Shown here: one piece after another, positions 5,024-49,414 of the stretch
Layout: every line of letters begins with the position of its first letter
How positions within the stretch are numbered: the first letter of the stretch is position 1
NCBI GenBank assembly: GCA_020723285.1
Contig: DYJE01000002.1
Coordinates: 62,001 to 126,000, forward strand
Direction: 5' to 3'
Length of the DNA: 64,000 nt
From: Desulforapulum autotrophicum
Lineage (GTDB): Bacteria > Desulfobacterota > Desulfobacteria > Desulfobacterales > Desulfolunaceae
Position numbers and translations under genes: made by a program
The notes under the pieces: generated by a model
The model's database searches: none
The model's input: the letters and a program-made list of their open reading frames with translations, nothing else
What the model was told of the DNA's origin: nothing

Positions 5024-7471
5024 ATGGATAACAGCGAAACAACCATCGAAACAGCCGTCGGCCTTCCGATGTGGAATACCTTCACATATAAGGTCCCTCC
5101 TGAACTTCAGGAACAGGTAATGCCGGGAATGCGAGTTCTTGTTCCGTTCAATTCCCGGACTGTCACCGCGTTTATCCTGTCCGTCAATTCCGGAAGGAGA
5201 GATCTGGATTTCGAGCCCAAGCCCATTCTGGATGTCCTTGACCCCACACCTCTATTCCATATGTCCCATATTCCTTTTTTCAAGTGGATTTCCTTGTATT
5301 ACCTTTGCCCGCTTGGCGATGTGATCAAAACAGCCCTTCCCGGAGGCATTACGGTTCAGGATCTCACTCTGGTCCGTATCACCGAAAAAGGACTTGCTGC
5401 CATAGGATCAACTGAACTGTCACAACAGGAACGCCGGGTTCTTTCGGGTGTCATTGATGGCCCTAAAGCCTCATCTGTCCTTGTTCGATCGGTTGAACCT
5501 CCGGTCAAAACTTCTTTCCTGAACACATTGGAGCGAAAAGGTTTTGTCCGTTTGACAAGAGATTTGAAAAAAAGCAGCACCAACCGCAAGTTTGAAACCT
5601 GGGTCAAACCCGTTGAAACGGCCCTTGACGTGTCCGCCCTGACAGATACCCAGTCAGGACTGCTTGAACATATCCGGGAAACAGGTGAAAGTCCGCTGAG
5701 CCGAATTAAAAAAACGCCTTGTTATTCTCCGTCCCGGATGGCCGCCTTGGAAATTCGTGGCTTTGTCACCCGTTTTGACCGGCAGGTATACCGGGACCCG
5801 TTGGGAGATTCCGTGATTCCGGACATCCCGCCTGACCTGACCGACGAGCAGGCTGCCGTGGTCTCTGAAGTGTCCGGCGTACTTGAGCGAGGTTTTTCCT
5901 CCTGGCTTCTTGTGGGGGTTACCGGCAGTGGAAAAACAGAAGTCTACATGCGGCTCGTTCAAGACGCCCTTGAAAAAAATCTAAGCGCCCTGGTCCTTGT
6001 TCCGGAGATCTCCCTGATTTCCCAGACGGAAAAACGTTTCAGGATGCGTTTTGGGGACACCATCGCCGTGCTCCACAGCGGCCTCACCAAAGGGGAAAAA
6101 TTTGACCAGTGGTTGCGCATTGCGGAAAAACAAGTGAGGATCGTCATTGGGGCTCGTTCCGCCATTTTCGCACCTCTTGAAAACCTGGGTCTCGTCATTG
6201 TGGATGAAGAGCACGACGCATCTTACAAACAGGAAAACGGACTCAGGTACAATGCCAGGGATCTTGCCGTGGTCAGGGCCAAACTTGAAAATGCCGTGTG
6301 TCTTTTGGGTTCTGCCACACCCTCGGTTCAGTCCTATCGCAACACGGAAAACGGAAAATTCAGAGAACTTGTCCTGACCCGGCGGGTCAGCGACCGTCAA
6401 ATGCCGCGCATTGAACGGGTGGATCTGAAAACATACAGGGATTATCCAGGAATCCGGAGTTTTATCACGCCACCTCTTGAGGAAGCCATGGCCCGGACCC
6501 TTCGGGAAAAGGAACAGGTGCTGTTGTTTCTGAACAGACGGGGTTACGCCAATTACCCGGTCTGTGCCACCTGCGGCGAGACCATGAAATGCGTCAGCTG
6601 CGATGTGTCGTTGACGTATCACCAGAGCAGGAACGCCTACCGTTGTCACATGTGCGGGTACATGATTCCTTCGGTTTCCAAGTGCCGGGTCTGCAATTCG
6701 TCCAACATCAAGAACCTGGGTTTTGGTACGGAAAGGATCGAGGCGGCAGTAAAAGCCTTGTTTCCCGATGCGTCCGTGGCCAGACTCGACCAGGACACCA
6801 CAGTAAGGCAAGGTTCCATGCTGAAAATTCTCAAGGATGTCAAGGAAAGGCGCACCGACATTCTGGTGGGAACGCAGATGATCGCCAAAGGACACGATTT
6901 CCCAGGCATCACTCTGGTCGGTGTGATCTGTGCGGACCAGGGGCTTAACTTTCCGGATTTCAGATCCTGTGAACGGACATTCCAGCTTCTGGCCCAGGTT
7001 GCGGGCCGCGCAGGACGTGGTGATACACCGGGCCGGGTAATCATGCAGACTTACAATCCAGATCACTTCAGCATTCTTGCCGCTGAAAAACAGGACTTTC
7101 GTGAATTCTACGCCCAGGAAATACAGTTCAGACACAGCCTGGGTTACCCTCCGTTTTCCCGGATGATTCAGATTCGCATCTCCGGAAAAAACAAAACCGC
7201 AGCCCAGGAAACGGCAGAACTGGCCGGTGCGTGGATCACGAACCATATCACCGCTCATCAGCCTCTGTTTGACGCTGTGGGCATCATGGGCCCTATCGAA
7301 GCGCCGATATTTAAAATGGCTGACCAGTACCGATGGCAGATCCTTTTGAAATCCGCGGCCCAAAATCCGCTTCATACCCTGACCAGGCGCTTTGTCCACG
7401 AGATTTCAGGCTCTCTGAAAAAAGACGGAGTCCGCATTTCCACGGACATTGATCCATATTATCTGATGTAA
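5024..7471 (+). CDS. priA: primosomal protein N' (replication restart helicase PriA)
   Basis: 815 residues. PriA recognises stalled forks and D-loops and reloads the replisome. An N-terminal DNA-binding region ('VGLPMWNTFTYKVP') is followed by the helicase core: Walker A GVTGSGKTE near residue 300, and DEEH near 394-397. A four-pair Cys zinc region lies at about 512-556 ('CATCGETMKCVSC', 'CHMCGY', 'CRVC'). The C-terminal motifs 'GTQMIAKGHDFPG' and 'QVAGRAGRGDTPGRV' complete the helicase. Length and motif order match full-length PriA. The next gene starts 10 bp downstream on the same strand. Confidence 0.95.
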   Translation: MDNSETTIETAVGLPMWNTFTYKVPPELQEQVMPGMRVLVPFNSRTVTAFILSVNSGRRDLDFEPKPILDVLDPTPLFHMSHIPFFKWISLYYLCPLGDVIKTALPGGITVQDLTLVRITEKGLAAIGSTELSQQERRVLSGVIDGPKASSVLVRSVEPPVKTSFLNTLERKGFVRLTRDLKKSSTNRKFETWVKPVETALDVSALTDTQSGLLEHIRETGESPLSRIKKTPCYSPSRMAALEIRGFVTRFDRQVYRDPLGDSVIPDIPPDLTDEQAAVVSEVSGVLERGFSSWLLVGVTGSGKTEVYMRLVQDALEKNLSALVLVPEISLISQTEKRFRMRFGDTIAVLHSGLTKGEKFDQWLRIAEKQVRIVIGARSAIFAPLENLGLVIVDEEHDASYKQENGLRYNARDLAVVRAKLENAVCLLGSATPSVQSYRNTENGKFRELVLTRRVSDRQMPRIERVDLKTYRDYPGIRSFITPPLEEAMARTLREKEQVLLFLNRRGYANYPVCATCGETMKCVSCDVSLTYHQSRNAYRCHMCGYMIPSVSKCRVCNSSNIKNLGFGTERIEAAVKALFPDASVARLDQDTTVRQGSMLKILKDVKERRTDILVGTQMIAKGHDFPGITLVGVICADQGLNFPDFRSCERTFQLLAQVAGRAGRGDTPGRVIMQTYNPDHFSILAAEKQDFREFYAQEIQFRHSLGYPPFSRMIQIRISGKNKTAAQETAELAGAWITNHITAHQPLFDAVGIMGPIEAPIFKMADQYRWQILLKSAAQNPLHTLTRRFVHEISGSLKKDGVRISTDIDPYYLM

Positions 7472-7481
7472 AGGAAAATAT

Positions 7482-7988
7482 ATGAAAATTGCTGTGATGA
7501 GCGACACCCACGACAACCTGTGGAACCTCCGCCGCGCCCTTCAGATTGTCCAGAAAGAACAGGCCGGGCTGATCATCCACTGCGGAGATTTTGTCGCCCC
7601 GTTTATGCTCAAGGAACTGGAAAAGGCCGGACTGCCGGTTTACGGCGTCCTCGGAAACAATGACGGAAGCGGATTTCTTCTTGCCAAAACAGCCCTTACC
7701 GAACTGACTCGCATATCTTTGAGCGAGATCGTGGGGTTTGTGGATGCCGACGGCTTTTCCGTCAGTATCACCCATCAGCGAGTGGTTGCCGAAGCGCTTG
7801 CACTGACAGGGAAATACGATTTGGTGTGTTACGGTCATTCTCATGTTTACCGTCTTGAAACCCTTGAAAATACACTGTTGCTCAATCCTGGAGAAATTAT
7901 GGGAAAAGAAGGAAAACCCGGCTTCTGCACTGTCGATACGGCAACACGCCGGGTGGTTCGGCATGAGATAGAAAACGTCTATCACTAG
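7482..7988 (+). CDS. YfcE/MJ0936-family metallophosphodiesterase
   Basis: 168 residues. It shows the calcineurin-like metallophosphoesterase signature: 'MSDTHDN' at 6-12, 'HCGDF' near 35, 'GNND' near 60, and 'YGHSH' near 113, giving a two-metal site. Such proteins hydrolyse phosphodiesters in the cytoplasm; the physiological substrate is usually unknown. AAGGAAAATAT precedes the ATG, and priA ends only 10 bp upstream, so the two genes are likely cotranscribed. Confidence 0.88.
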   Translation: MKIAVMSDTHDNLWNLRRALQIVQKEQAGLIIHCGDFVAPFMLKELEKAGLPVYGVLGNNDGSGFLLAKTALTELTRISLSEIVGFVDADGFSVSITHQRVVAEALALTGKYDLVCYGHSHVYRLETLENTLLLNPGEIMGKEGKPGFCTVDTATRRVVRHEIENVYH

Positions 7989-8077: not shown

Positions 8078-9199
8078 ATGAACAAAGTCAAAATGTTATT
8101 TTTTATGCTGATGGTGTTATCCTGTGCCTTGCCATGCTTGGCGGATGACGCCCCGGCGCGGGCATCGTTTGTTATCTATTTCGACGCCCAGGCATCCACT
8201 CCACGGTTCGATGCCACGAAAACCCTTGATGCAATCAAAAACAAACTTGCTGAAAACAAGGAACTTGTGGCGGTGATCGAAGGTCATACGGATACCGGTG
8301 AAGTAAAAAAAGGTGGCTTCAATGTTGGTGGGTCTGCTAAAGACCTGTCGCTTCAACGGGCGGAATACGTGTCAAACTGGATTGCTTCAGCCCTGGGATC
8401 ATCGGTGACCCGGGAAGTGAAATATTTCAGGGATACCCTGCCAGCGGTAAAAAAAGGCCCCTTTTCAGGTTTATTCAAAAACACATCGGACAACCGGCGC
8501 GTGGAGGTGAAACTTTACACCCGTGGAACACAACCCAGCGGAAATTCCAATCCCATGGCTGCGGGTGGAGAAGGTTCCCAGGTTTTTCTCCCTGAAACGG
8601 AATTTTCATTCAAGGAAGTTTATGAAGGTCAGGCCGTTGTCCACGATTTCATCGTCAGGAACAAAGGCAAGGCCCCCCTTGAAATTCTTGACGTCAAACC
8701 CGGCTGAGGCTGTTCGACTGTTTCGTTTACGAAACTCATCTCTCCAGGTGGAGAAGGAAAAATAACGATCAAGGTCAATACCAAGGGTTACGGCGGCCGT
8801 AAGATGTCCAAGTCCATCCAGGTCACCACCAACGATCCCATGAACAGCCAGTTCAAACTCGGAATCAAGGGTGATGTCCGGAAGGTGGCGGATATCATGC
8901 CTGATTATGTCAGGATGTCCGGGCGTCTCGGGACCACTATGGAACGAAAAGTCACGGTAAGTCCATCGGATGATTTCCCGTTCAGAATCAAGGCTGTTAA
9001 AACAAGGGAAAAAGGAAATATCCGTATCGCTTACAGAGCGACTGGACGTGGTTATGAACTTACAGTCACCAACACCTACTCCAAGGAAGGCGGCTACGAT
9101 GACGATATCATCATCACCACGGACAATCCGAAAGTTTCGGAGTTACGGATTCCAGTGAACGCCTACATTCTTGCACCCGATCCCAGTGTAAAACAGTGA
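8078..9199 (+). CDS. OmpA-domain/DUF1573 protein with in-frame UGA, candidate selenoprotein (Sec210)
   Basis: The frame runs 8078-9199 with one UGA at 8705-8707; read through, it gives 373 residues. Residues 1-22 are a signal peptide. An OmpA-like peptidoglycan-binding domain covers about 30-150 ('VIEGHTDTGE', 'LSLQRAEYVSNWI', 'DNRRVEVKLY'). DUF1573 begins near 185 ('EGQAVVHDFIVRNKGKAPLEI'). This family normally continues V-K-P-S-C-G-C-T; here the sequence is V-K-P-G-UGA-G-C-S, so the UGA replaces the first Cys. The second half of the domain continues without any frame change ('SPGGEGKITIKVNTKG', 'TTNDPMNSQFKLGIKGDV'). The stop at 9197-9199 overlaps the next gene's GTG by 4 bp. A hairpin of SECIS type lies at 8720-8735. 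The alternative is a recent nonsense mutation of a Cys codon; the hairpin position and intact downstream frame favour selenocysteine. Confidence 0.82.
8705..8735 (+). promoter_or_regulatory. UGA codon with candidate bacterial SECIS hairpin
   Basis: UGA is at 8705-8707. GTTTCG (8720-8725) pairs perfectly with CGAAAC (8730-8735) around the loop TTTA, which lies +19 to +22 from the UGA. GA (8716-8717) can also pair with TC (8736-8737), leaving CT bulged on the 5' side. In E. coli fdhF the SECIS loop lies at the same distance, with a bulged U and a GU at the loop's 5' side. SelB binding here is inferred. Confidence 0.7.
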
Positions 9200-9843
9200 T
9201 ACAGAAAAAATTAAAAAAAATCAAGGTGTTGGCCTTTGACTGTGACGGTGTGATGTTCGACACGGAAAAAGCGAACCGCATGTACTACAACCGTATTCTC
9301 GAACATTTCGGACAACCAGTTTTAAGCCGTGAACAGTTCGAATACGTGCACATGAGCACCGTTAAGCAGGCACTGAACTTTCTGTTCAAAGACCGGGAAT
9401 GCCTGAACGAAGTTTTCGATTACACCCGGAATATGAGTTACGAGCCGCTGATTCCCCATATGGAAATGGAGCCCTATCTGAAACCGCTTCTTCACTGGGT
9501 GAAACCGGCTTTGAAAACGGCCATAGCCACGAACCGTTCCAATACCATGAACGGGGTCATGACATTTCACGGGCTTTCAGAACTGTTTGATCTGGTTGTG
9601 ACATCCCTTGATGTGGAACATCCCAAACCCCATCCGGACCAGTTGCTGAAAATCCGTGATCATTTCGGGGTTGCGGCGGACAACATCTTATATATCGGGG
9701 ATTCGAAAACAGATGAACAGGCCGCCATCATGTCCGGCGTACCGTTTGTTGCATATAAAAACCCCTCACTCCAGGCTTCGTACCATATCTCGGACCTGAA
9801 GGAGGTAAAGGCCATCCTCAAAGGCGATGGTGATACGTTATAA
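9196..9843 (+). CDS. HAD-superfamily phosphatase (phosphoglycolate phosphatase-like)
   Basis: 215 residues, starting at a GTG inside the GTGA overlap with the preceding selenoprotein candidate, which suggests translational coupling. HAD motif I is 'FDCDGVMFDT' near residues 14-23, with the nucleophile and acid-base aspartates. Motif II is 'TNRS' near 115. Motif IV is 'YIGDSKTDEQAA' near 172-183. A helical cap lies between. It should hydrolyse a small phosphorylated metabolite in the cytoplasm; the substrate cannot be told from sequence. Confidence 0.87.
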   Translation: MIQKKLKKIKVLAFDCDGVMFDTEKANRMYYNRILEHFGQPVLSREQFEYVHMSTVKQALNFLFKDRECLNEVFDYTRNMSYEPLIPHMEMEPYLKPLLHWVKPALKTAIATNRSNTMNGVMTFHGLSELFDLVVTSLDVEHPKPHPDQLLKIRDHFGVAADNILYIGDSKTDEQAAIMSGVPFVAYKNPSLQASYHISDLKEVKAILKGDGDTL

Positions 9844-49276: not shown

Positions 49277-49288
49277 GGCTAAAAAAAC

Positions 49289-49387
49289 GCTGGGGGTGTC
49301 CTGAACGTTATTGATGTGTTCGGGACTGAGACGGAACTGGATTCCAACCCTTTGAACCTGATGCAGCTTGTACTGCCGTAGGGAAGC
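49289..49387 (+). promoter_or_regulatory. TPP riboswitch (THI element)
   Basis: The conserved pieces occur in order: GGGGGTGTCC at 49292-49301, ACTGAGA near 49325, the core AACCCTTTGAACCTGAT at 49346-49362, and GCCGTAGGGAAGC closing the P1 stem (GCT at 49289-49291 with AGC at 49385-49387). It binds thiamine pyrophosphate. With the terminator at 49415-49446 it should stop transcription of thiSGHFEC when TPP is plentiful. Confidence 0.93.
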
Positions 49388-49414
49388 ACTAAAAAAAATT
49401 TCTTCACGCATTTT

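Follow-up and report, generated by a model that had tools for sequence, protein, structure and literature searches.

The window, by which we mean the whole 64-kb stretch of DNA analysed, carries a gene predicted to join an OmpA-like domain to a DUF1573 domain (Table 1). The frame 8078-9199 on the forward strand is open throughout save for one TGA at 8705-8707, which is codon 210; a standard reading ends there and yields a 209-residue open reading frame (ORF). The Pfam DUF1573 match (74.6 bits) spans codon 210, in agreement with a sequence-only reading of this locus that had described a single UGA splitting continuous DUF1573 sequence, and the next ORF, from GTG at 9196, overlaps the stop codon by 4 bases as that reading had also described. 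The UGA stands where the family's C-G-C motif has its first Cys, so that the motif of the window protein reads V-K-P-G-U-G-C-S. Because reading the UGA as a stop cuts the gene to 209 residues, such genes are easily misannotated without a selenocysteine (Sec)-aware model.

Table 1. Features at the locus, in window coordinates.
Feature	Position	Strand	Basis
PriA-like helicase gene, upstream	5024..7471	+	ORF, named by recognition
Calcineurin-like phosphoesterase, upstream	7482..7988	+	Pfam Metallophos_2
Predicted OmpA-DUF1573 selenoprotein, whole gene	8078..9199	+	373 codons, Sec at 210, stop TGA 9197-9199
Probable signal peptide, residues 1-23	8078..8146	+	inferred from sequence MNKVKMLFFMLMVLSCALPCLAD
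OmpA-like domain, peptidoglycan-binding kind, about residues 29-148	8162..8521	+	Pfam and VIA-align
DUF1573 Ig-like domain with Sec-Gly-Cys motif, residues 173-267	8594..8878	+	Pfam and NCBIfam NF041425
UGA-Gly-Cys: UGA codon 210, Gly 211, Cys 212	8705..8713	+	conservation in relatives
SECIS-like hairpin, 6-bp stem and 4-base loop 8726-8729	8720..8735	+	sequence, covariation
Second Ig-like beta-sandwich domain, about residues 270-365	8885..9172	+	AlphaFold2 strands, fold matches
HAD-family hydrolase, downstream, 4-base overlap	9196..9843	+	Pfam HAD_2

Relatives were collected by whole-genome search, with a match in 340 of the 389 genomes of the class draw. Scanning the genome contigs with the whole window protein as query gave no match; a second scan, queried with the aligned C-terminal halves of 30 UGA-type and 2 Cys-type rows, returned 158 relatives, the best 80 of which form a set of 80 named loci. 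All 80 have TGA at codon 210, as counted with a query that favours the UGA type. The loci that were read codon by codon were chosen rather than random, comprising top-ranked rows and every listed row without an internal TGA, and the following fractions are not population frequencies: a first reading covered 119 entries, the window itself accounting for two, and gave TGA in 101 of the 117 other loci and TGC or TGT in 16, and the aligned codon across 143 distinct sequences, the window included, was TGA in 127, TGC in 12 and TGT in four. Position 210, which the sequence-only reading had proposed to compare among homologues, is thus occupied by UGA or Cys only (126 and 16 of the 142 distinct relatives, respectively), and the frame downstream is open in nearly all UGA sequences. 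This lends strong support to the placement of Sec at the first Cys of the C-G-C motif.

Two further readings of the codon have to be weighed against these counts. If the UGA were a real stop, in a decayed gene or through a sequencing error, a 209-residue OmpA protein would be left, which is how a standard translation ends; the recurrence of UGA at the same codon in relatives, the open frame behind it, and the covarying hairpin and whole Sec machinery described below leave this reading a vanishingly small probability. Read-through by a near-cognate tRNA or a reassigned code, with UGA read as Trp or another residue, would likewise leave the frame open. However, the alternative codons in the 143 sequences specify Cys only, UGA also terminates the same gene, and the genome holds two tRNA-Sec (UCA) genes, so this reading, too, is extremely improbable. 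Sequencing error, pseudogene and UGA-as-Trp were all rejected in view of conservation and the sel genes.

The UGA and Cys forms share the DUF1573 domain and differ around the site. Cys 212 is kept in 127/127 UGA rows, and both Cys of C-G-C are present in 14/16 Cys rows; the remaining two Cys rows read C-C-G, among them L022, a second DUF1573 protein from the window's own genome. In the Cys form, Cys takes the place of Sec and the preceding residue is less often Gly (3/16, with Ser in 7/16, compared with Gly in 113/127 and Ser in 4/127 UGA rows). His 189 is present in 124/127 UGA rows. Both forms can occur in one genome: among the 14 genomes in which a Cys copy was listed, 11 also carry a TGA copy, the exceptions being G118, G165 and G182. 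On a quick tree built with the Sec column masked, in which support is weak for 51 of 140 inner branches and three rows sit on long branches, switches between U and C require at least seven changes, three of which are forced by well supported branches. Two sequences deserve separate mention: L024 (G005:C133) is a DUF1573 copy with UGA-Ser-Cys, a shifted and longer hairpin and a very long branch in the tree, and L065 (G328:C92), a Cys copy interrupted by a TAA, may be a paralogue in decay; its genome has a UGA copy as well.

For a wider view, 148 genomes were drawn from the phylum; NF041425, the NCBIfam model discussed below, matches 53 of them at E 1e-15. TGA lies inside 27 of the 68 listed matches, counted at any position within the match, and inside 13 of the 16 matches over the model's cut-off. 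Outside the window's order the count is 22 of 61, and rows without TGA, counted whatever residue they carry, are commoner there.

Just downstream of the UGA, 8720-8725 (GTTTCG) pairs with 8730-8735 (CGAAAC) in a perfect 6-bp stem. The loop lies at +19 to +22 from the last UGA base, as noted earlier, and covariation strongly supports a SECIS-like hairpin. The first fetch, together with the window, supplied 101 distinct UGA stretches. We aligned 96 of these for this analysis, having set aside the outlier L024 and four that carry a 3-base insertion. Over the 96 sequences, the lower five pairs were formed in 92.1% of cells, with double changes in 62 cells and in all five pairs. None of 500 shuffles reached the observed paired percentage, the number of double-change cells or the covariation score, while the number of pairs was matched by 1/500 and the number of pair types by 12/500. 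Stem versions slid from this register were paired at 32-50%, and an eight-pair version at 73.8% with 79 double changes, its outermost and innermost pairs being present in about half of the rows or fewer. The window's sixth pair, 8725-8730, is present in just 28 of the 96. The Cys sequences (n = 14, with the two C-C-G rows left out) formed the five-pair stem in 54.3% of cells, matched by 364/500 shuffles, and thus show no excess.

Because the stem lies within coding sequence, we also ran a control in which codons were swapped for synonyms from the same family pool. UGA rows formed 4.50 of the five pairs against 3.40 (sd 0.07) in this control, and Cys rows 2.44 against 2.56 (sd 0.19). The stem was perfect in 92/126 UGA rows and 2/16 Cys rows, and the other 34/126 UGA rows do not form the complete set of five pairs in the window's register. 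The loops have a peculiarity. Of the 92 five-pair hairpins, 32 begin the loop with GT and 60 with TT, CT, AT or CA, so that 60/92 have no G at the first two loop positions; in the window, G 8725 either pairs with C 8730 or opens a six-base loop, GTTTAC. Elsewhere in the same genome, the selD UGA folds with a loop GGT and one formate dehydrogenase UGA with a loop GGTCT. We read the missing G at these positions in most of the hairpins as a departure from the guanosine conserved in the apical loop of bacterial SECIS elements, not as a refutation.

The window assembly (5.44 Mb, 97% complete) contains the genes for Sec insertion, selA, selB, selC and selD, which had been named earlier as a check on the proposal: there are two tRNA-Sec genes (UCA), two selB over the cut-off, one selA and one selD, the last with an in-frame TGA of its own. 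Among the 80 genomes that carry the UGA form, selB over the cut-off was found in 66; the search returned none in 14, including G219 (98% complete) and G098 (97%), for which assembly gaps may account. The 35 other genomes comprise 14 with a Cys copy and 21 without a match, and 29 of them also have selB over the cut-off. Carriers and non-carriers thus both commonly have the gene, and its presence discriminates little. Considering codon, hairpin and machinery, UGA 8705-8707 almost certainly specifies Sec, by far the best reading of these sequence data.

Some features of the second selB are recorded here in their own right. It lies at L218:7972-9906 and adjoins the second tRNA-Sec (UCA) gene (G000:C16:67935-68022, L002) within 60 bases on the same strand. 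The pair adjoins in turn a formate dehydrogenase gene with Cys, not Sec, in R-V-C-H, whose match ends at position 648 of 672; short repeated words just beyond the end of its frame (L218 5150-5320, reverse strand) may have removed its C-terminus. Two selB matches (E 1e-60) also occur in 9/80 and 4/35 other genomes. A second SelB dedicated to decoding this family is not needed, as a single match was found in 57 of the 66 UGA genomes that have selB.

The family itself is a known one. The window protein scores 138.5 bits over residues 171-267 against NCBIfam NF041425, 'OS_HP2 family (seleno)protein', whose cut-off is 100, and at the motif of that family it has the in-frame UGA 8705-8707 followed by G211 and C212, i.e., UGC. 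In the accessible parts of the literature, OS_HP2 appears as pfam07610 with the motif UxC and the row figures 2, 2 and 354 (PLoS Genet 2008, PMC2398784), and a DUF1573 selenoprotein with the motif UGC is given in the reviews PMC9312934 and PMC13188914, the latter crediting Zhang and Gladyshev's 2007 work on the Olavius algarvensis symbiont. Within those parts, each of the three papers devotes one table row to the protein, without a function. The earlier claim of a candidate new selenoprotein consequently falls: DUF1573 selenoproteins are known as OS_HP2, and the window protein, on its sequence, is a member of this known family, not of a new one. The protein shares the DUF1573 domain and the UGC motif with the OS_HP2 protein of the Olavius algarvensis symbiont, and a UGA form also occurs in Olavius sp. 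associated proteobacterium Delta 1 (L182). It differs from OS_HP2 by an extra N-terminal OmpA domain. We found no description of an OmpA fusion of an OS_HP2/DUF1573 selenoprotein in the literature searched, most subscription papers lying outside it, and the fusion looks undescribed as far as that search reaches.

An AlphaFold2 model computed with 62 sequences (mean pLDDT 84.6, pTM 0.60) shows two beta-sandwich domains and an OmpA fold, with an uncertain relative placement of the domains. Residues 1-4 and 6-23 of the putative signal peptide have pLDDT < 50. The second Ig-like domain contains a block with pLDDT >= 95 and matches Ig-like chains in fold, and Sec 210 is modelled between strands 201-208 and 212-217. 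For the DUF1573 part, VIA-align returned VesC (Z 10.7) and a HYDIN domain (Z 9.9); the best-ranking folds belong to Ig-like domains, ciliary ones among them, that are mostly structural and give no hint of function. Searching solved structures with a 62-member profile yielded 2qsv, a Porphyromonas protein of unknown function (E 0.036), in which the aligned stretch does not contain the motif.

Pfam OmpA (PF00691) matches residues 34-107 with 29.0 bits, just over the gathering cut-off of 27.2. In fold, this part aligns with 3td5, an A. baumannii OmpA-like domain complexed with a peptidoglycan pentapeptide (Z 12.8, rmsd 2.8, 110 aligned). It thus shares the fold of Pal/OmpA-like peptidoglycan-binding domains, from which it differs in its weak sequence score and in a longer loop between Asp 72 and Arg 94. 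These two residues align by eye with what we take to be the diaminopimelate-binding residues of A. baumannii OmpA.

OmpA domains recur in the family, although most members have none that we detected. Two carriers of the UGA form, Desulfosarcina widdelii (L138) and Desulfamplus magnetovallimortis (L178), are among the members without a detected one. Among the 143 sequences, eight have the domain fused N-terminally (two of them weakly supported) and two C-terminally. The N-terminal domains of L141, L166 and L187 are clearly over the Pfam cut-off (68.5, 69.4 and 80.6 bits); like that of the window, those of L134 (27.9) and L136 (27.6) are just over it, that of L164 (26.3) is just under, and L067 was grouped by a weak phmmer match (E 0.0014) and its sequence. 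The C-terminal domains, in L149 and L171, score 57.0 and 73.0 bits. Other N-termini were screened by phmmer with the window's OmpA stretch, and more fusions may exist because this screen is insensitive: L041, a twin of L141, gave E 0.85. The eight N-terminal fusions require at least five changes on the quick tree. In 6 of the 80 loci, moreover, the selenoprotein gene has a small OmpA-like gene as its neighbour (one, L151, Pfam-checked). This repeated association, at both ends and as a neighbouring gene, supports action at the peptidoglycan, and the envelope location suggested by the sequence-only reading gains support from the predicted domain content.

To characterize the neighbourhood, we clustered 396 flanking ORFs of the 80 named loci, leaving out contig ends and ORFs < 110 codons, and read the 25 commonest clusters by eye. 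Matched in this way, a HAD-like ORF follows on the same strand in 51/80 loci, and a PriA-like ORF (median 815 aa) and a phosphoesterase-like ORF similar to that of the window lie upstream in 40/80 and 11/80, respectively. The recurring arrangement of PriA-like, phosphoesterase, selenoprotein and HAD genes speaks for orthology, not function. No gene for a redox partner or electron donor stood out in the 25 commonest clusters of these loci.

We consider it highly probable that the gene product is a Sec-containing OS_HP2 protein of the envelope, a judgement that excludes its chemistry. SelB and tRNA-Sec would decode UGA 8705 as Sec at the hairpin just downstream, and the protein would be exported, its OmpA-like domain holding the mature form to peptidoglycan. 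The Ig-like domain would present the Sec-Gly-Cys pair on a turn. There, we guess, the selenol of Sec 210 could attack an oxidised or electrophilic envelope substrate and Cys 212 could act as the resolving thiol by way of a selenenylsulfide intermediate, perhaps assisted by the nearly invariant His 189. The most likely function is that of an exported, wall-anchored selenol/thiol redox protein; the redox chemistry of the Sec-Gly-Cys pair is a guess to which we give about an even chance. The pair might instead serve in the envelope as a trap or chaperone that binds an ion of a metal or metalloid, without redox turnover. The U-x-C pair together with His 189 could form a metal site and wall anchoring fits sequestration, but no metal-resistance gene stood out by eye in the 25 commonest neighbour clusters of the 80 loci, and we regard this reading as unlikely.

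Going beyond a wall-anchored redox protein as such, we tentatively put forward a fuller picture, with the balance somewhat against it: a wall-anchored selenoenzyme in which OS_HP2 works at the peptidoglycan through repeated, independent gains of OmpA domains, Sec-Gly-Cys, carried by an Ig-like rather than a thioredoxin-like fold, forms a new type of envelope redox centre, and the SECIS mostly lacks the apical guanosine. More than a hundred genomes have the UGA form, and the recurrence of OmpA fusions gives a hint of the protein's site of action. The switches between Sec and Cys, matched by the presence or absence of the hairpin, offer a ready comparative set.

Elsewhere in the window, seven other same-frame ORF pairs are split by TGA, and a TPP riboswitch lies at 49282-49401 on the forward strand (69.5 bits, cut-off 54.3).
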